From positions 1 to 29,185 of the IMG/VR virus record IMGVR_UViG_3300025949_000075: a DNA stretch of 29,185 nt. One strand, written 5' to 3'. The position numbers were made by a program, and so were the translations under genes. The notes below the pieces were generated by a model. That model was not told the DNA's origin and made no database searches. It saw only the letters and a program-made list of their open reading frames with translations. Source of the stretch: a virus. Positions 3,469 to 24,366 of this stretch are shown in pieces; the first letter of the stretch is position 1; the number at the start of each line of letters is the position of its first letter.

Positions 3469-5624
3469 CGCAACTCTTTCACCTGCAGGGCTGGTTCGAG
3501 CGCAATACCGAAGGGCTCGGCACCGTCTATTTCGCAATCATCGACGAGGGCCTGCTCACGCGCGAGAGCGATACGCCGTCGGGCGTTGCCTTCCCTCCGC
3601 GCATCATGAACCCAGACACGTTCTCGATCAGCCGAAAGGCGACGTTCTGGCCGTGGGGTGAAACGCAGGAGGCCGCGGCAGCCGTCGCCGATCTCGAAAT
3701 CTACAACTACGATGGCGCCTACGATTTTCTGCTCAACGCCGATCTGCGCGATGCGCCTGCCGTCTTCAAGATCGTTCCCGCCGGTATGCTCGGCGGCGCG
3801 ACGACGGTCGCGGATGGCCTTGTGGTTGCGACGGTCCTGATCGACGACATTACGAGCCCGAGCGAAGACGTTATCAGGGTGAAGTTTAAGGACGTGCTCG
3901 CGCGCCTCGACGCGCAGCTACCCGTCCGCTACAACCCGCCTTATGTGGACTCGAACGCTGCAAACAAAATGGTGCCGATGAGCTTCGGCGCATGCCGCAA
4001 CGTGCAGCCGCTTCTCATCTACGCCGCCGGCATCCATGCGAGCGGCGAGCCCGTCTATCAGATTCACGACATGCCGCTTGCGAACATTGCGCAGGCGCGC
4101 GACAAGGGCGCGATCCTCGACGTCAACGCAGATCCGCCGCAGGCGGTGCCGGCGCTGAATCGAAGCGGCATCCAACTCGCGACGTTGCCGGCCGGAAAGT
4201 TGCTCGTCGATTGCTCGAGCGAGGGCACGCAGGCGATCCAAGCCGGGGCCGTCGATATTCTCGGCGGCATCGGCGAGCTCACGACGTGGCCCGTCGCTGG
4301 ATCGCCGCCGACCGGATGGAGCTACGGCGGCAGCGGCACGCACGTTCGCGTCGGTACGCCGCAGTATCCGCAAGACTACTGCGCGCAGATGACGACGCAG
4401 GCGCAATTCATTCCGACGCTTGGCGCCGTAGGCGATTACATGTATGTGACGACGCCGTTTCTGCAGCCGGGCAGTGCCTACCGTTTTCGCTTCATCCCCG
4501 ATCAGGTGCTCGGCTCCGTCACGGCGACGCCCGGCGGCTTCATGCTGCGGACGAATCTCACCGTCGATCCGACCGGAGACGTTTCAGGGAATTGGGCCGG
4601 CCCCTATATCACGGCGCCGCAAGCGGGGCGGAGTCAGAGCTTCGTCTATCGCGCGCCGAACGATGGCAACATCAGAACCATTTACGTGATTATGGTCGGC
4701 GGTGGCGTCACCAATCCGGCTTGGACTGGCACATGGCACAAGCTCACCTGCGAGCTGCTAGGCCAGTTCGAAGAGCTGCCGCTCGAAGGCATCACGCTCG
4801 AGGCCTACGCCGAGGACATTCTCTTTCTTCGCGCGTATGAAGATACGTCGCTTTGGAATCCGACATCGCTCGCGAACATCGATGCCGCGACCGGCTACAC
4901 ATTCGGCATTCATTTCGACGAGCCGCCGAACATCCTCCGCGATTGCTTGCTAGGTCCGCTGCCGAGCTACTGCGCCGACATCGCGACCGATGCGAGCGGC
5001 CAGCTCTACGCGTTCCAGCTCAAAGACCCATACGCGGAGCTTCCGATCTGCGGCTTCGACATGACGAACACGCAGCGTCCGATCGTCATCGAGCAGGACA
5101 ATGCGCCGTTCCTCACAACCGTCATGGGCGCGCGCCGCAACTGGACGCTGTCGGGTCCATCCGATTTCGTCACGGACTACGATCTCGTGCCCGCTGACGT
5201 GCGCGCGCGCTACGGGCGCAAGTCGCAGTATCAGGTTACATCGAGCGTCACGCCCGCCGGCACCTATTCGCACGCGATCGGCGCGCCGATCTTCGATTCT
5301 CTGCTCGACGATCCCGACGACGCGCAGACGGAGATCGATCGCGTCGTCGGGTTCTACGCGCCGAAAGTCTACGGCAACGGTCACGTCTTCAACGGCAAGC
5401 GGAACTTCGTCACGTTCACGACGCTATTCGACGACGCGAGCGGGCAGATCGGAAATCAGATCATTGGCACCGTGAAGGCGCCGGAGCTGTTGCTCGGCGA
5501 CATCGTCACGTTGACATACGCGCATGCGGATGGGACTACGATGTTCGATGGAACGCCGATCTTTGTCTCGGGGACAGAACTGTTTCCCTTCGGCAACAAA
5601 CTCACGATAACGGGGTGGTACTGA
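3465..5624 (+). CDS. Large tail-tip/baseplate protein
   Basis: At 719 aa this is one of the two longest complete genes in the window, and it starts with an ATGA overlap. The N-terminal 200 residues include FSISRKATFWPWGE and VLIDDITSPSEDVIRVKFKD, which resemble tail or baseplate proteins that begin with a short beta-rich region. The middle (about residues 270-440) looks like an inserted beta-sandwich with SPPTGWSYGGSGTHVRVG, possibly carbohydrate-binding-like. The C-terminal third (from ADIATDASGQLYAFQLKD) ends in a beta-rich GTPIFVSGTELFPFGNKLTI segment. No peptidase or lysozyme motif is evident. A tail-tip or baseplate role is inferred from size and position between the fibre genes and the lysis region. 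Confidence 0.6.
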   Translation: MTQLFHLQGWFERNTEGLGTVYFAIIDEGLLTRESDTPSGVAFPPRIMNPDTFSISRKATFWPWGETQEAAAAVADLEIYNYDGAYDFLLNADLRDAPAVFKIVPAGMLGGATTVADGLVVATVLIDDITSPSEDVIRVKFKDVLARLDAQLPVRYNPPYVDSNAANKMVPMSFGACRNVQPLLIYAAGIHASGEPVYQIHDMPLANIAQARDKGAILDVNADPPQAVPALNRSGIQLATLPAGKLLVDCSSEGTQAIQAGAVDILGGIGELTTWPVAGSPPTGWSYGGSGTHVRVGTPQYPQDYCAQMTTQAQFIPTLGAVGDYMYVTTPFLQPGSAYRFRFIPDQVLGSVTATPGGFMLRTNLTVDPTGDVSGNWAGPYITAPQAGRSQSFVYRAPNDGNIRTIYVIMVGGGVTNPAWTGTWHKLTCELLGQFEELPLEGITLEAYAEDILFLRAYEDTSLWNPTSLANIDAATGYTFGIHFDEPPNILRDCLLGPLPSYCADIATDASGQLYAFQLKDPYAELPICGFDMTNTQRPIVIEQDNAPFLTTVMGARRNWTLSGPSDFVTDYDLVPADVRARYGRKSQYQVTSSVTPAGTYSHAIGAPIFDSLLDDPDDAQTEIDRVVGFYAPKVYGNGHVFNGKRNFVTFTTLFDDASGQIGNQIIGTVKAPELLLGDIVTLTYAHADGTTMFDGTPIFVSGTELFPFGNKLTITGWY

Positions 5625-6511
5625 TGCTGCTCATCTATGGCGACTATACGATGACGGCGGCCATCACCGGCCAGAGCGGAAGCGGCGCCGCATTCCTAAC
5701 CGATTCCGCCGCGCTCTTCGACGGACGCGCCGGCAGCGGCACCTCGCTTCGCTGGACGAATGGCACGCAGAATACGGCGAGCTATGTCGAGATCGCGGTC
5801 ACGATTACCGCGAACCCTTTCGGTGAGGCCTCGCCGCGCAAAGGCGGCGCCGGCCTCGTGAACGTCGTCGGCGTGCCCTACAACTTGAAAACGGTCATCG
5901 GCGGCATCACGCAGCGGCTTCGCAATGGTCCGCGCGGAGAGCTCTGCGCATGGGTATTCCCCGAGGCCAACGGAACGACGCTCGTCATCCGCCTCTACAA
6001 CGACGATGGCACGGGCACGCCACCGATTGCGGCTGCGGCAACGATCGGCATCGGCGAAATCATCGTCGGGCGCCTCATCAATGTCTGCACGCTCATCAAC
6101 TCATCGCCCGGCCGCGCGATTCAGGACACGACAGTGCAACAGGCGACAGCCGGCGGACAGTTGAACGAACTCATGCGGAAACCGTGGTGGGGCGTAGGGA
6201 CGCCGCTCGGCCGCTTCACGATGGATGAGGCCAAGGGCGGCAGCGCAGGCGGCGGCATCGACAACGGCGGCAACCCCGCCGGGAAGATCGACATTCAAAC
6301 GCTCGCGATGTTCCTCTCGACGACGCGCGTCTGCGCGATCTGCGACACCGCGCACGGACAGGCGAAGACGATCTCGGCCGATGGCATCATCTACGATCAG
6401 GACTTTATGCAGGGCAATTGGCTCCTCGCGCGGCCCGCGCAGATGCCGGGGCCTGTCCTCGACAAGGCGCCAAAGCACTCGTGGTCGCCGACATGGACGG
6501 AGGCGCGCTAG
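5624..6511 (+). CDS. Tail-associated protein of unknown function
   Basis: The ATG at 5624 overlaps the previous stop as TGATG and gives 295 aa; a GTG at 5615 is an alternative start only three codons earlier. The N-terminal part (ITGQSGSGAAFLTDSAALFD and GTSLRWTNGTQNTASYVEIA) looks like a beta-rich jelly-roll-like fold, as in other tail or carbohydrate-binding proteins; this is a weak, visual resemblance. The C-terminal half has the segments GRAIQDTTVQQATAGGQLNE and FLSTTRVCAICDTAHGQA. The latter holds a CAIC pair. The gene ends the run of overlapping tail genes; a 50-base gap follows. Confidence 0.55.
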   Translation: MLLIYGDYTMTAAITGQSGSGAAFLTDSAALFDGRAGSGTSLRWTNGTQNTASYVEIAVTITANPFGEASPRKGGAGLVNVVGVPYNLKTVIGGITQRLRNGPRGELCAWVFPEANGTTLVIRLYNDDGTGTPPIAAAATIGIGEIIVGRLINVCTLINSSPGRAIQDTTVQQATAGGQLNELMRKPWWGVGTPLGRFTMDEAKGGSAGGGIDNGGNPAGKIDIQTLAMFLSTTRVCAICDTAHGQAKTISADGIIYDQDFMQGNWLLARPAQMPGPVLDKAPKHSWSPTWTEAR

Positions 6512-12393: not shown

Positions 12394-12738
12394 TCACCGC
12401 AGGAATGGCGCGAACCTGTAGCACTCAGTAGGGAAGTCGGCGCCGTACTCAGCGCACGAGCATGCTTCGCCACACGGCTCGGTAACTTCGACTTCAATCA
12501 GCAGCCCATGACGCTTGCCCATGTCCTGCATTTCGCCATCGCCTTCCCAAAACTCGTGCAGCGCATCGCGACAGAACGCGCGCATCTTCTCCGCATCCAC
12601 ACGGAGCCGGGCGAGTTCGTCGGCAGCATCTATCATCAGTTGCGGTGCGTAACGATACTTTGGATCGCGCAGCAACATTCCTGAGAACTCGCGCAAATCC
12701 TCGATCAACCGCCCGTTACCGTGTCCGGCGGTGGTCAT
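12394..12738 (-). CDS. Conserved phage early protein with C-terminal Cys cluster
   Basis: A 114-aa product starting by ATGA overlap with the XRE gene. The N-terminal half is helical (PQLMIDAADELARLRVDAEK) and the C-terminal part reads KRHGLLIEVEVTEPCGEACS followed by CAEYGADFPTECYRFAP. That cysteine-bearing ending is one I recognise from uncharacterised proteins of phages of Pseudomonadota, and it could bind a metal. No function is known. The 60 bases before the next gene hold its ribosome-binding site and no other feature. Confidence 0.65.
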   Translation of the reverse strand: MTTAGHGNGRLIEDLREFSGMLLRDPKYRYAPQLMIDAADELARLRVDAEKMRAFCRDALHEFWEGDGEMQDMGKRHGLLIEVEVTEPCGEACSCAEYGADFPTECYRFAPFLR

Positions 12739-12950
12739 GTCTGTGATTCCAATGCTGATGCGGCCAAAGCATTTACGGGGACGGCTAGCGCAATGCTAAG
12801 TCTCGTGGCCAGCAGCAGACCGATGTTCGCTGTCTTGCCGTTCTCTATCTCCCAGATATAACCCTTGGTTGCGCCAACCGCATCGGCTACGTCTTGCAGA
12901 GACATACCAGCCGTTTCTCTGCGCTGCTTAATCAAGTCGCCCAACTTCAT
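12735..12950 (-). CDS. XRE-family HTH regulator (small)
   Basis: The ATG at 12950 has GGGGAGAGGAAAA just upstream, which makes it the preferred start over upstream in-frame alternatives; the product is 71 aa. It is a single helix-turn-helix of XRE type: MKLGDLIKQRRETAGMSLQD, then VADAVGATKGYIWEIENGKT (recognition part about residues 17-40). There is no C-terminal multimerisation or peptidase domain, so it is not a full CI-type repressor. It lies deep in the leftward operon, far from the control region at 18400. Its target is unknown. Confidence 0.8.
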   Translation of the reverse strand: MKLGDLIKQRRETAGMSLQDVADAVGATKGYIWEIENGKTANIGLLLATRLSIALAVPVNALAASALESQT

Positions 12951-15964: not shown

Positions 15965-16161
15965 TGTGAACTCCTCTGGTTATGGATGCCATGCTTCTGC
16001 ATTTTCGCGCGTAATGCTTTCTGCCTTATATCCAGCGCCCGCGCAGTCGCCGAAATATCACCATTAAGTCGATTCAGTGTTCTAAAGATAGTCGCGAACT
16101 CCATCAACGCGATGGCGTCTCGAAGGCTTATCATCACGTCATATTGCGGACGCCGGCTCAC
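15961..16161 (-). CDS. Fis-type (HTH_8) DNA-binding protein, minimal
   Basis: A 66-aa product overlapping both neighbours by ATGA. The C-terminal half, LNRLNGDISATARALDIRQK (about residues 29-48) followed by LRAKMQKHGI, matches the Fis-type HTH (HTH_8) found at the end of NtrC-family regulators and in Fis. The N-terminus is a single helix pair with no other domain. It could bind DNA as a small dimeric architectural or regulatory protein. Being coupled to YqaJ, it might act on recombination or on operon control; both are inference. Confidence 0.7.
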   Translation of the reverse strand: MSRRPQYDVMISLRDAIALMEFATIFRTLNRLNGDISATARALDIRQKALRAKMQKHGIHNQRSSQ

Positions 16162-17054
16162 TTCGAGCCTCGCTCATGGATACGAAAGTCGCGGTAGCCT
16201 TTCCGCGTATAGGCGGCGATTTCCTTCTCGCCGATGACTTTTGCGCTGAGCGAGTAGCCGTCGCCGATCACCTTCTCGGCGTCGCCGATGAGCGTGAGCA
16301 GTTCGGCCTTGCACGCCTTCTTCGCCTTCTCGGCCTCAATCTCGGCGGCGCCGTGCGCCTTGTATGCGGCCATGAGCGAAAGCATGCGCTCGTCGGCGTC
16401 GATGACTTTGCCGGGCTTTGCCTGCGCGTATAACTGCGCGATGAAGTCAGCATCGGCGAGGAAATCAGGCTCTGGCTCCGGCGCTTGCCAGAACGCACGC
16501 GCTTCGCGTTCGAGGCGACTCGCAACCGCATTGTCCAGATCGCGGCGCAGCACATAGGTTTCGGTGCCGACGAGCACGCCGATGAAGAGGACAGGGATTT
16601 CGGCGAGCAGCATTTCTTGTTGGCATTGCGCCTCGATCTCGACTGGCGCCTGCAGGCCGAAGCCTTCTTCTTCTTTCCAGCCGCGCGCGAATTGGAACGG
16701 CCCGACGAGCTTGATCTCGAGGAGCGCCGAACGATCGCGCAGCACATAGTCGAAGGATGATCCAAGCCGCAGGGACGGATCGCGCCGGTATTCCTTCATC
16801 GGCTCAATGTCGAAGCCGTATTCAAGCGCAATGTGTCCTGCGATCGAGCCTTCGAGGCGCTTACCGAGACGCATGGCCTCGTTTTCGTCGCGTTCGACGA
16901 TCATTCCGCGGTGCTTCTCGTGCCATAGCTGATAGCGCGTCTTCCATGCGGAGACGCCACACATCGCAGCCGCATCTGTCGCGGTCACGTCTTGCGTGCG
17001 CGCCTGAAGCCACGAGGCTTCGTCAACGAATGGCAGGACTTCCCGCGAAGTCAC
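16158..17054 (-). CDS. YqaJ-like viral recombinase exonuclease
   Basis: The GTG at 17054 overlaps the upstream stop (GTGA) and gives 298 aa, close to the usual YqaJ size. N-terminal VTATDAAAMCGVSAWKTRYQ is the family signature. The PD-(D/E)XK active site is intact: Glu68 in GKRLEGSIAG, Asp102 in GSSFDYVLRD, Glu113 and Lys115 in LLEIKLVGP, and the Gln-rich helix EIEAQCQQEMLL (about 139-150). Such enzymes are 5'-3' dsDNA exonucleases that supply 3' single strands to an annealing protein. The C-terminal region from about residue 230 is helical and charged. The candidate partner is encoded at 14680-15630. Confidence 0.85.
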   Translation of the reverse strand: MTSREVLPFVDEASWLQARTQDVTATDAAAMCGVSAWKTRYQLWHEKHRGMIVERDENEAMRLGKRLEGSIAGHIALEYGFDIEPMKEYRRDPSLRLGSSFDYVLRDRSALLEIKLVGPFQFARGWKEEEGFGLQAPVEIEAQCQQEMLLAEIPVLFIGVLVGTETYVLRRDLDNAVASRLEREARAFWQAPEPEPDFLADADFIAQLYAQAKPGKVIDADERMLSLMAAYKAHGAAEIEAEKAKKACKAELLTLIGDAEKVIGDGYSLSAKVIGEKEIAAYTRKGYRDFRIHERGSK

Positions 17055-17368
17055 GGCGCGCAATCCAGCGTCAGCCGCGACCCGTGATTCGCGGTATAGG
17101 CGAACGTCGGGTAGCAGTTGCCGGCAAACGCGCGCTTGCCGCCGAGGTTGACGGACCACGCGCCGAGTACGGGCGCGGCCGCCGAGTCAGTGCCGGCGAC
17201 ATATGGGCCGCCAGCGACGTTGAACACGGCCTCGCCGTTGACGCCGTCGAGGTAGACGCGCTGCAGCGTGCCCTCGTAGAGCGTCTCGGTGCCGCGCTGG
17301 CTGATAACGAGCTCGTCGGCGCAGGCGACATTCGCGAACGCGGCGAGGGCGAGGAGATAGGTTTTCAT
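17051..17368 (-). CDS. Small exported (periplasmic) protein
   Basis: GGAGG precedes the ATG at 17368. The 105-aa product starts with MKTYLLALAAFANVACADEL, a signal peptide with probable cleavage after ACA; the mature part is beta-rich (RVYLDGVNGEAVFNVAGGPY) and carries two cysteines (GNCYPT and LDCAP), which could form a disulfide in the periplasm. An exported protein in a phage early operon is unusual; superinfection exclusion or envelope modification is possible, but no family is recognised. It overlaps both neighbours by four bases. Confidence 0.6.
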   Translation of the reverse strand: MKTYLLALAAFANVACADELVISQRGTETLYEGTLQRVYLDGVNGEAVFNVAGGPYVAGTDSAAAPVLGAWSVNLGGKRAFAGNCYPTFAYTANHGSRLTLDCAP

Positions 17369-17864: not shown

Positions 17865-18100
17865 ACGGCACCACTTAGCGTCGGCGACTCCGATTCCCAT
17901 CCGGCCGGCGCCTTCATCAGCACATGATCGCCGTCGCGGTCGAGCTCGATGAAGCCGAAGGCGAGCAGGAGCGGATACTTCAGGCCGTGCACGTAGGCGA
18001 GCTCCGTCGTGCCGAGCAGCGCCGAGGCCGGGGCGAGAGTCTGCGCGCGCGGCTCCGTGGCGAAGCGGCGGCGCTCGGTGCGGAATTGGGTGCGGTTCAT
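17861..18100 (-). CDS. Hypothetical 79-aa protein
   Basis: The ATG at 18100 overlaps the first gene's stop (ATGA). The product has a basic N-terminus (MNRTQFRTERRRFATEPRAQ) and an aliphatic middle part (LLGTTELAYVHGLKYPLLLA) that is too short and mixed to be a confident membrane segment. No family is recognised. Second gene of the leftward operon. Confidence 0.5.
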   Translation of the reverse strand: MNRTQFRTERRRFATEPRAQTLAPASALLGTTELAYVHGLKYPLLLAFGFIELDRDGDHVLMKAPAGWESESPTLSGAV

Positions 18101-18339
18101 GCGCCCGCCTTCGCCAACGCGGCGCTAGCCATTGCGGCTACCTGAGTTCCATCGTGCTCGGCGTATTCCGCGATATTGCGCAGCGCCGCCACAAGCTCGT
18201 CATGCGCGTTGCAGGCGCGGACGATGAAGGCGGCGTTTTCTTCCGAGGTAGCCGAGCCGACATACGTGCTGTCCGGCCCCATGATCCGACGTGATGCGTA
18301 GACCCGATAAGGCGTCGGCGTGTGCGTTGCGGTGTTCAT
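18097..18339 (-). CDS. Conserved phage early protein, first gene of the leftward operon
   Basis: The ATG at 18339 has AGGGAG about six bases upstream and follows the predicted leftward promoter at 18375-18403. The 80-aa product contains the segment SEENAAFIVRACNAHDELVA (about residues 33-52), which I recognise from many small uncharacterised phage proteins. The helical C-terminus ends the protein. Being immediately downstream of the shared promoter, it is expected to be among the first leftward genes expressed. The function is unknown. Confidence 0.65.
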   Translation of the reverse strand: MNTATHTPTPYRVYASRRIMGPDSTYVGSATSEENAAFIVRACNAHDELVAALRNIAEYAEHDGTQVAAMASAALAKAGA

Positions 18340-18374
18340 GCTTTGCTCCCTTGCTGTTGACCTACGATGGGAAT

Positions 18375-18403
18375 AGCCTAGCAAAAAACAAGCTAGCTTG
18401 CAA
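18375..18403 (-). promoter_or_regulatory. Predicted leftward early promoter
   Basis: On the minus strand, TTGCAA (18403 to 18398) and TAGGCT (18380 to 18375) are separated by 17 bases. The first matches the minus-35 consensus at 4 of 6 positions, the second the minus-10 at 3 of 6. Start of transcription would be near 18368, leaving about 30 bases of leader with AGGGAG before the ATG at 18339. Weak by consensus alone; the symmetry with the rightward promoter strengthens it. Confidence 0.45.
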
Positions 18404-18424
18404 CTAGCTAAATTGTCCGCTAGG
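18377..18424. promoter_or_regulatory. Operator cluster of CTAG half-sites
   Basis: Four CTAG(C/G) motifs lie at 18378-18382, 18393-18397, 18404-18408 and 18420-18424. The outer pair (CCTAGC at 18377-18382 and GCTAGG at 18419-18424) is inverted around about 18400, and CAAGCTAGCTTG at 18389-18400 is a perfect 12-bp palindrome. They overlap both predicted minus-10 and spacer regions. Likely binding sites for the Cro-like protein encoded directly downstream; this is inference. Confidence 0.55.
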
Positions 18425-18426
18425 AT
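18398..18426 (+). promoter_or_regulatory. Predicted rightward early promoter
   Basis: TTGCAA (18398-18403) and TAGGAT (18421-18426) have a 17-base spacer; each matches 4 of 6 consensus bases. It reads into the Cro-like gene, with a start expected near 18433 and an ATG at 18436, so the transcript may be nearly leaderless. The self-complementary TTGCAA would serve as minus-35 for both directions. Confidence 0.45.
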
Positions 18427-18435
18427 CGCTTTGCC

Positions 18436-18615
18436 ATGACCAAAACCCAGCTCAAACGTAAGCTCAAGGCGCGCGGCGAGGAAAGCAACGACCGCGCCAT
18501 CGCCGCTTTGTTCGGCATCTATCCGCAAGCCGTTCAGGCTTGGCCGAAGGATCGGCCGATCCCTGAACTTCGCAAGCTGCAGTTGCAAAAGATGCGACCG
18601 GAGCTATTCGCATGA
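18436..18615 (+). CDS. Cro-like HTH repressor, 59 aa
   Basis: Encodes a 59-aa protein starting MTKTQLKRKLKARG. An HTH is visible at about residues 19-37 (DRAIAALFGIYPQAVQAW), followed by KDRPIPELRKLQLQKMRPEL; the pattern of A-x-x-G-x-x-x-x-A-V-x-x-W and the PIPE-x-R ending matches small Cro-type repressors of lambdoid phages. It overlaps the next gene by ATGA. Position right after the divergent operator fits an autoregulator and switch protein. No full-length CI gene lies beside it on the other strand, which is not the lambda layout. An AGGA lies ten bases upstream of the ATG. Confidence 0.75.
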   Translation: MTKTQLKRKLKARGEESNDRAIAALFGIYPQAVQAWPKDRPIPELRKLQLQKMRPELFA

Positions 18616-21665: not shown

Positions 21666-22351
21666 GCGCGCGCGTCGAAGTCATCGGCAACGCCACGCTC
21701 TACCTCGGTGATTGCCGCGAGATTCTGCCGACGCTGCCGAAGGTCGATGCGCTGGTGACTGACCCGCCGTATGGGATTGGCTGGAAACCGAGAGTCAATC
21801 ACCAAGACCAGACATGGATTGACCGCATCGACTTCGACATACGTGACTTCTTGGCCGTTGGTACGCATCACCTGATTTGGGGCGCGCAGTATTTCGCTGA
21901 CAAATTGCCCGCGCATGAGGGCTGGCTGACGTGGTGCAAGCGACCTGTTGACATGGATTTTTCAAATGACGACAGAAGCTATGCGACGACCGAACTAGCG
22001 TGGCGCGACTGGGGCAAAGCTAAGTTCATCTGCCACGTTTGGGATGGCGGCATGCGTGCCGGTGCGCGCGAGAACCGAGATTTTTGCCATCCGTCGCAAA
22101 AGCCCGTCGAGGTGATGGAATGGTGCGTAAAACAGCTGCCGCCTGATCGGATGATTGTTCTCGACCCCTTCATGGGCTCCGGCACCACCGGTGTCGCCTG
22201 CATGAACCTCGGCCGCAAGTTCATCGGCATCGAGATAGAGCCGAAATACTTCGACATCGCATGCGAGCGCATTTCCCGCGCCGAGGCTCAACCGAGCCTT
22301 TTCTCGCCTCCTGACCCTGAGCAAATAGACGCCTTCGGCGGTGCCAAATGA
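21662..22351 (+). CDS. Orphan DNA methyltransferase (N6-adenine or N4-cytosine, beta-type order)
   Basis: The ATG at 21662 overlaps the leader ORF and has GAGGT eight bases upstream. The 229-aa product has the catalytic motif DPPYGIGW at about residues 34-41 and the S-adenosylmethionine motif DPFMGSGTTGVACMNL at about 168-183. The catalytic motif coming first is the beta-class order. DPPY is compatible with exocyclic amino methylation of adenine or cytosine. No restriction endonuclease partner is nearby, so it is likely an orphan enzyme that protects phage DNA or modifies regulation. Its stop overlaps the primase gene (ATGA). Sequence specificity cannot be read from here. Confidence 0.88.
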   Translation: MSARVEVIGNATLYLGDCREILPTLPKVDALVTDPPYGIGWKPRVNHQDQTWIDRIDFDIRDFLAVGTHHLIWGAQYFADKLPAHEGWLTWCKRPVDMDFSNDDRSYATTELAWRDWGKAKFICHVWDGGMRAGARENRDFCHPSQKPVEVMEWCVKQLPPDRMIVLDPFMGSGTTGVACMNLGRKFIGIEIEPKYFDIACERISRAEAQPSLFSPPDPEQIDAFGGAK

Positions 22352-24366
22352 CGCCGCTCGAGCAACGCCCCGAGGCGCCGGTCCTGCTCGTGCACGCCCG
22401 CGCCGACATCGCCGACGACTGGCTCGCCTCGCACGTCGCCGCGGCCGAGCGCGCCTACCCTGCCTTCGTCGTCCTGCCCCTGCACGGCCTCGACGTCGAC
22501 GCTGAAGCGCTTGCAGGGCGCGACGTCGTCATCTGGCCATGGATGGGTGCCCCGAGCCAGCGCGCGGCGTTACGGCCCGCTGCGGGCGTTCTGGCGCGTA
22601 CGGCGAAACGGGTGCGCCTCATCGCGCCCTCAGCCGACGAGGCCATCGGCCCCGGCGATCTGAACGGGCATGAGCCGATCGCATGGGCGAAAGCGCGCTG
22701 CGAGGACGTGGCCGCGACGCCCGTCGAGGATCTCGAGGCGCTCTGGTTCCCCGAGGAGCCGGATGCTCCGGTAATTCCGGAAATAGAAGAGCGCGCGCTC
22801 GTCAGCGCCTACGCGGACTCGCACCCGGACATCCTCGAGGAGCCGCCGCCCGAGCCCGTCGATCTCTTCGAGAAGCAGCCGCTTCCGCGCCTCGCCGAGC
22901 GGTTCCTGCCGCCCGCGATCGCGCCCTTCATCTTCGATCAGAGCCAGATCATCGGGTCCGACCCCTGCGTGCTCTTCATGTCGGCGCTCGTCGCGTGCGC
23001 GGCGGTGACGAGCGACTTCATCCGCATACAGCCGAAGCAGTTTGAACACGGCTGGAAAGAGAGCGCGCGGCTCTGGGGCGCCTTCGTCGGCGATCCCTCG
23101 GTGAAGAAGACGCCGCCGCTCGCGCGCGCCACCGCGCACCTTCGCAAGCTCGATCTCGAATACGCCGAGGCCGGCGCCGAGGCACAGACGCGCTACAAAA
23201 TCGCGCTCAAGGTGCACGCCAAGGCCGAAGCGCGCTGGATCGACGCGCAGGCCAAGCACGCGCCGTGTGCGCCCCTCGACGACGCGCCCGAGCGCCCGCC
23301 AACGAAGCGCATCATCGTCCAAGATGCGACGATCGAGGCCGTCGCCGACGTGCTCATCGACAATCCGCAGGGCGTGCTCGTGCTCCAAGACGAGCTCTCG
23401 GGCTTCTTCGGCTCGATGGACGCCTACCGCGCGCAGGGCGGCAAGGATCGGGCGTTCTGGCTCGAGGCCTACAACGGCGGGCCGCGGCGAATCGATCGCA
23501 TCGGCCGCGGAACCATGTCGGTTCCGAACCTGAGCGTTTGCATGCTCGGCGGCATCCAGCCCGCTGCGATCCGCGCCGTCGCGCAGAAGAGCGTCGAGGA
23601 CGGGCTCTTGCAGCGGTTCATGATCGTATGCGCGGAGGGCGGGGAGGCCGTCGGCGACGACCGGCGCGCGGACACGGGCGCGTCAACGCTCTACCGCGGC
23701 ATTCTCGACGAGCTCGCGCGGCAAACCGGAGACCCCGAGAAGCCGGTCCTGCTCGAGCCCGGCGCGCGCGAGATCATGCTCGACGCCGAGAAGAAGCTCA
23801 CGGCCTTCGCCAAGCTCGATCGCCTCCCGCTGCGGATGCGCTACCAGATGGGCAAATGGTCGGGCCTCTTCGCGCGGCTCTGCCTCACCTATCACGCGAT
23901 CGAGTGCGCGGCGCTCGGTATGCCTGTCGCCGGCGCCGTGGCCGCGGACATCGCCGCGCGCGTGCACGCCCTCCTCTTCGAGTATCTGTTCTGGCACCTC
24001 AAGCACTTCTATGAGGCCGTCATCGGCGACACCGCGAACGAAATGGAGCTGCTCTACCGCGTCGCCGACTGGATTCTCGCGGCCGCGCCAGATCGCTTCA
24101 CGGCATCGCACGTCGCCAAGGGCGTCTCTGCGTGGCGTGGTTCCACGTGGAACACCCGCCGGAACGTGCTCGATCAGCTCGAAGTGTGCGGATGGGTCAC
24201 GCGCGCCCAGACGGTTCGCTATGGGCACCATGCGTATTTGGTCAATCCGAGGACGCGGGAAATGTTCGGAGACCGCATAGAGGCCGAGCTGAAGAGGCGA
24301 CACGAGGGCCGGGCGGCGATCCTCGATGACGTCGTCGGAAGGCCTACTAAGTACGAGAATGAATGA
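22348..24366 (+). CDS. DUF3987 primase/helicase-like replication protein
   Basis: A 672-aa product starting by ATGA overlap. The N-terminal 165 residues (LLVHARADIADDWLASHVAA, DVVIWPWMG) look like a Toprim-like or Rossmann-like region, a weak visual resemblance. The DUF3987 core begins near PPAIAPFIFDQSQI. It has a Walker A-like loop GDPSVKKT at about residues 248-255, and GVLVLQDELSGFFGSM near 343-358. The KDRAFWLEAYNGG, DRIGRGTMSVPNLS and LGGIQPAAIR segments are typical of the family. The Gly before the catalytic Lys is replaced by Lys, as in some family members. It likely acts in phage DNA replication. Confidence 0.8.
   Translation: MTPLEQRPEAPVLLVHARADIADDWLASHVAAAERAYPAFVVLPLHGLDVDAEALAGRDVVIWPWMGAPSQRAALRPAAGVLARTAKRVRLIAPSADEAIGPGDLNGHEPIAWAKARCEDVAATPVEDLEALWFPEEPDAPVIPEIEERALVSAYADSHPDILEEPPPEPVDLFEKQPLPRLAERFLPPAIAPFIFDQSQIIGSDPCVLFMSALVACAAVTSDFIRIQPKQFEHGWKESARLWGAFVGDPSVKKTPPLARATAHLRKLDLEYAEAGAEAQTRYKIALKVHAKAEARWIDAQAKHAPCAPLDDAPERPPTKRIIVQDATIEAVADVLIDNPQGVLVLQDELSGFFGSMDAYRAQGGKDRAFWLEAYNGGPRRIDRIGRGTMSVPNLSVCMLGGIQPAAIRAVAQKSVEDGLLQRFMIVCAEGGEAVGDDRRADTGASTLYRGILDELARQTGDPEKPVLLEPGAREIMLDAEKKLTAFAKLDRLPLRMRYQMGKWSGLFARLCLTYHAIECAALGMPVAGAVAADIAARVHALLFEYLFWHLKHFYEAVIGDTANEMELLYRVADWILAAAPDRFTASHVAKGVSAWRGSTWNTRRNVLDQLEVCGWVTRAQTVRYGHHAYLVNPRTREMFGDRIEAELKRRHEGRAAILDDVVGRPTKYENE

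Follow-up and report, generated by a model that had tools for sequence, protein, structure and literature searches.

The 96-bp gap that separates the leftward gene block (ending at 18339) from the rightward gene block (beginning at 18436) in this viral DNA is best read as a predicted fusion of the early-left and early-right promoters on one -35 box. The whole model, a single early control region in which the promoters would stand back to back on that -35 and Cro would close both, seems to us fairly probable.

Gene Layout Around the Site

The window, that is, the whole stretch analysed, is a linear piece of 29,185 bp with 62% GC from an IMG/VR virus record. The 2.6 kb around the site matched none of the annotated phages in a nucleotide search, and the Cro-like protein was not found in the bacterial genomes searched. 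By profile search, tail and lysis genes lie at the left of the window, the leftward block holds a YqaJ/RecE-like exonuclease, a phrog_3657 protein, and small unknown proteins, and the rightward block encodes, from 18436, the 59-residue Cro-like protein, a DNA methyltransferase, a helicase/primase-type protein, the terminase, and the portal. The genes that matter here are the following.

12735–12950, minus strand: XRE/HTH_3 protein of 71 aa, late in the leftward operon, with a good SD sequence; without counterpart in the nearest relative, L001
14680–15630, minus strand: phrog_3657 protein, of a family with no assigned function, adjoining the exonuclease (E 9e-102; 77% identity in L001)
16158–17159, minus strand: YqaJ/RecE-like recombination exonuclease of the leftward operon (phrog_434, E 5e-46; PF09588, E 1.6e-16)
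18097–18339, minus strand: 80-aa protein with no function assigned, encoded first in the leftward early operon, with homologues in 14 other viral loci
18436–18615, plus strand: 59-aa Cro-like repressor, encoded first in the rightward early operon (phrog_409, E 1.6e-5; P22_Cro, E 4e-4)
22348–24366, plus strand: helicase/primase-type replication protein of the rightward early operon (phrog_2373, E 6e-19)

The 80-residue leftward gene has an SD sequence, GGGAG, at 18346–18350, 6 nt ahead of its ATG, and no repressor domain was detected in its product by profile search. In other phages RecT/Erf annealases adjoin the exonuclease; since the phrog_3657 protein occupies that place directly beside the YqaJ exonuclease, it is, judged by position, the likely recombination partner. 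The 71-residue XRE/HTH_3 protein is a possible second, delayed regulator. Another contig (L075, IMGVR_UViG_3300005563_000723) encodes at 1–1563 the helicase at 100% identity and probably comes from the same phage population as the window.

Predicted Promoters on One -35 Box

The promoter elements are as follows.

18375–18380, minus strand: TAGGCT (AGCCTA on the plus strand), predicted -10 of the leftward promoter, with a 17-bp spacer at 18381–18397
18398–18403, both strands: TTGCAA, self-complementary -35 common to both divergent promoters, rank 1 in the window
18421–18426, plus strand: TAGGAT, predicted -10 of the rightward (cro) promoter, with a 17-bp spacer at 18404–18420; the same hexamer is found in L078

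The initial annotation had placed the self-complementary TTGCAA between two -10 boxes at 17 bp on both sides, and direct reading of the letters showed this to be exact. One hexamer is positioned as the -35 on both strands with -10 boxes at 16–18 bp on each side, the arrangement of divergent promoters with a shared -35; the -10 boxes themselves are separate, with 40 bp between 18375–18380 and 18421–18426. The leftward -10 also carries an extended TGn motif (TGCTAGGCT), which had been overlooked in that annotation. The predicted starts fall at about 18433 (plus) and about 18368 (minus), about 65 bp apart.

The hexamers are weak matches to the consensus (8/12 for the plus strand, 7/12 for the minus strand), and a weight matrix was adopted because a strict 9/12 consensus scan found no promoter. 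Scores were obtained with a simple sigma-70 matrix of approximate base frequencies, an E. coli matrix that may not be that of the host. The pair of divergent promoters with coincident -35s was the best in the window, its minimum score being 7.9 and that of the runner-up 5.9, and this score was matched by 1 of 300 shuffles in one run and by 0 of 300 in another. Among the 392 TTGCAA hexamers present in all collected loci, solely that of the window had both -10s at this level.

Comparison with Related Loci

The strongest support for a shared -35 at the junction of cro and the recombination genes came from a scan for TTG-N0-2-CAA that ignored gene positions and covered 42 GC-rich loci, 577 kb of phage DNA. 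A -10 score of at least 3 on both sides was found at 5 of 292 boxes, where 1.1 were expected, and four of these five are cro/recombination junctions, namely, those of the window, L001, L078, and L040 (hypergeometric 2e-6, a value that overstates the strength: the threshold of 3 was chosen with the sites already in view, and -10-like sequence is more frequent in intergenic DNA). The remaining box, in L028, does not adjoin cro.

L040 and L078 were reached through their phrog_3657 and helicase proteins, and both have the layout of the window, with cro and the replication genes on one side and the exonuclease on the other. The gap of L078 contains TTGTCAA flanked at 17 bp by TAGGAT on the right and TATCGT on the left, and that of L040 contains TTGACAA with -10 boxes at 16 bp on each side. 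In these two loci and in the window the best promoter for each direction, found independently, uses the same -35. In L001 we observed TTGCGCAA with usable -10s at 16 and 17 bp, and a separate TTGTGT-18-TAGAAT scores better as its cro promoter. Comparison with related phages, which the initial annotation had put forward as a check, was thus favourable in part: the shared -35 recurs at the junctions of L001, L078, and L040, but other divergent cro junctions (L002, L074, L079, L080, L081, and L084) have separate boxes or no shared ones. In the complete genome MW202484 a cro-like gene faces a recombination block, yet there is no shared -35.

L006 is a possible further case; at 5540–5720, between the gene of its Cro-like protein, which has no Pfam match, and a leftward operon, GGACAATTGTCC occurs twice; it lies over both -35s, with one copy over a shared -35. 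We did not accept L008 and L009, in which the ATG of the opposite gene appears within a few bases of the -35 and the leftward -10 would be intragenic, and L031, with a shared pair and poor -10s, was left uncounted. In a phage of lower GC content, L044, a shared TTGACAA was seen at 4392 at an ordinary cI/cro junction with an S24-type repressor opposite; the shared -35 geometry is therefore not confined to phages without cI.

These loci bear on an unlikely alternative, in which only the rightward promoter, TTGCAA-17-TAGGAT, is real, the leftward match is a by-product of a palindrome in the operator, and the leftward operon is transcribed from another place. Although the leftward TAGGCT is weak, it has the TGn motif and optimal spacing, and no better leftward promoter was found in the intergenic region. 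A self-complementary -35 does yield a second -35 for free, and boxes of the TTGACAA type yield paired -35s in many phages, but the leftward promoters of L078 and L040 are stronger and stand on the same kind of shared box.

The Cro-Like Protein

The phrog_409 family is annotated as "transcriptional regulator," and the match to P22_Cro (PF14549) is below the Pfam curated cut-off (20.5 bits versus 30.2), which the Cro proteins of L031 and L008 exceed. The model of the protein, built on six sequences, consists of four helices with a pLDDT of 87, and the best-ranked PDB matches given by Foldseek include N15 Cro, and P22 Cro at an rmsd of 1.7, all with nonsignificant E values above 0.3 (0.4–0.7). 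Close relatives are rare; there is one, in L001, at 73% identity, and the start of the recognition helix differs between the two (YPQAVQAW in the window and KEQAVQAW in L001).

The predicted start at 18433 would give a cro leader of about 3 nt before the ATG at 18436. The predicted -10 ends 9 nt from the cro ATG in the window (18426–18436), 5 nt in L001 (5990–6001), and 8 nt in L008 (4838), so the cro mRNA would have no leader or almost none. A leaderless cro mRNA has been established in PY54 (PMC4488713). Near 4838 in L008, a record that bears an integrase, the cro promoter reads TTGCCA-17-TATAAT and has a perfect palindrome, ACGAGCATGCTCGT, in its spacer.

Candidate Operator Array

The tetranucleotide CTAG is located at 18378, 18393, 18404, and 18420. 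Its placement is as the initial annotation had it: each outer copy shares 3 bases with a -10 box, and the inner copies fall within the spacers. The count by itself is less striking, since 35 of 5000 shuffles reach four. These four copies form three overlapping palindromes of the type TAGC-N9/10-GCTA, a feature that had escaped the first reading.

18379–18395, no strand assigned: operator candidate A, TAGC-N9-GCTA, covering the leftward spacer and the edge of its -10
18394–18410, no strand assigned: operator candidate B, TAGC-N9-GCTA, covering the shared -35
18405–18422, no strand assigned: operator candidate C, TAGC-N10-GCTA, covering the rightward spacer and the edge of its -10

No other TAGC-N9/10-GCTA was found in the window, and none of 5000 shuffled versions of the gap contained three of them. 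The region of candidate B can also be read as AGCTAG-N7-CTAGCT (18391–18409), and the outer arms, CCTAGC at 18377–18382 and GCTAGG at 18419–18424, mirror each other around the centre of TTGCAA. Taken over 24 pairs, the whole dyad is modest, with 12 of 24 paired and 477 of 29,137 centres doing equally well. The exact DNA pattern of the array was not found in viral contigs, and the TAGC/GCTA array is absent from L001. The operator sequence is not conserved between the window and L001, and the candidate array is tied to Cro by position only; its absence in L001, together with the change in the recognition helix, fits a changed specificity of Cro and proves nothing.

Lysogeny Functions and the Nature of the Switch

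The initial annotation had called the site a compact bistable or lytic switch, and the bistable part was not borne out. A tyrosine integrase, a resolvase, and an S24-type repressor were not found in the records of the window, L001, L078, L040, and L006, which may be fragments, nor were tyrosine integrase and S24 found in the complete genome MW202484. With Cro alone, expressed from the rightward promoter, the circuit would be negative feedback and not mutual repression. The site is best read as a lytic timing device rather than a demonstrated bistable switch.

Bistability would call for another repressor, and the sole candidate, a weak one, is the XRE protein. It is quite improbable that this protein, or a CI encoded in a part of the genome that the window lacks, competes with Cro at the operators while polymerase exclusion sharpens the choice. 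An HTH_3 protein is indeed encoded late in the leftward operon, but its gene has no counterpart in L001 and no TAGC-N9/10-GCTA operators nearby; the array could serve two proteins and the window is a genome fragment, but the search for an integrase or S24 repressor was negative in the relatives as well. The idea that the inverted repeats act as RNA, forming a minus-strand terminator or attenuator with TTGTTTTTTGC after it, is hardly credible and was rejected: a terminator scan flags 18409–18391 on the minus strand, but its RNA folds do not surpass those of shuffles (z -0.15 and -0.65), 3 of the 8 pairs in the stem are G-C, and no known minus-strand transcript arrives from the right.

Proposed Mechanism

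For the fused early promoters closed by Cro, we infer promoter activity, start sites, exclusion, Cro binding, and the timing of shut-off in the following way. The phage, whose known sequence holds no S24-type cI or integrase, would have this site as its sole early control region, and from one self-complementary -35 the leftward promoter would serve the recombination operon and the rightward promoter cro and the replication operon. The host sigma-70-type RNA polymerase could sit facing either way, not both, and early infection would alternate leftward and rightward starts; simultaneous occupancy is unlikely considering that the predicted footprints overlap heavily. The rightward promoter would yield Cro immediately, from an mRNA almost without a leader, and Cro would then bind the three overlapping TAGC-N9/10-GCTA candidate sites. 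As these sites cover the shared -35 plus each spacer and -10 edge, one repressor would close both operons, in a simple negative feedback on two operons at one place. Probably one polymerase is present at a time and both directions are shut off by Cro.

The earlier proposal of divergent early promoters under one repressor gains partial support from the promoters on one -35, the palindromic array, the adjacent Cro-like gene, and the geometry in relatives. The further claim that polymerase could occupy only one direction at a time is sound on steric grounds, but competition need not follow at low basal activity (PMC12825309).

Relation to Known Systems

In the lambda-type pR/pRM-cro region (also in P22, N15, and PY54) a small Cro-type protein is, as in the window, encoded first in the rightward operon. 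Judged by sequence, the window also has an array of palindromic candidate operators of about 17 bp between divergent promoters, as that region does. It differs in that no cI stands opposite cro at the same operator (the window record has no Peptidase_S24), and integration functions were not found in the window, L001, L078, and L040, records that may be fragments. The leftward partner is instead the recombination operon, with pL and pR merged, and the -35 is shared, whereas those of lambda-type regions are separate. Lambda Cro shuts off the early genes at pL and pR, and our model would collapse the same action into one site.

The geometry, described at first as unusual, is only partly so: the divergent promoters flgAP2/flgBP2 of E. 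coli share the same -35, and activation of one lowers the opening of the other (PMC12781870). The E. coli pair depends on sigma-28, serves flagellar genes under MarA control, and has no repressor operator array. Bidirectional promoters with a shared -10 are common and compete only at higher activity (PMC12825309, Warman et al.). In these, as in the window, the symmetry of the sequence permits polymerase binding either way, one at a time (PMC12825309), but they share the -10 and have starts 10–23 bp apart, whereas the window shares the -35 and its predicted starts are about 65 bp apart; with two separate -10 boxes it falls outside the class in which divergent starts 10–23 bp apart lie over one -10. 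The overlapping divergent promoters Pc/Pr of pLS20, which are sigma-A promoters, form a plasmid switch under one regulator (PMC4207663), a likeness to the window; there, one promoter is proposed to have its -35 where the other has its -10, and the regulator, which employs DNA looping, is an activator of one of the two. A literature search, missing most subscription journals, found no paper describing a phage whose pL and pR are joined at one -35. Shared -35 divergent promoters being already known from flgA/flgB, the phage arrangement appears to be a partly new version of a known control circuit.

We tentatively propose, as a possibility that goes beyond the single site, that a group of cI-less, probably virulent phages has fused pL and pR into one promoter element. 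In these phages the near-palindromic shared -35 would double as the main Cro operator, and the balance of recombination and replication genes would be set by a single Cro dimer together with one polymerase at a time; each lineage would keep the 16-17/shared -35/16-17 spacing while the -35, the operator, and the recognition helix of Cro change together. The site offers a minimal and testable case in which both early operons would be governed from one place by one repressor, without a lysogeny arm. It would show how the direction in which polymerase faces at one -35 sets the proportion between recombination and replication genes, and it suggests that phages make repeated use of the shared -35 design known from a flagellar locus in bacteria.
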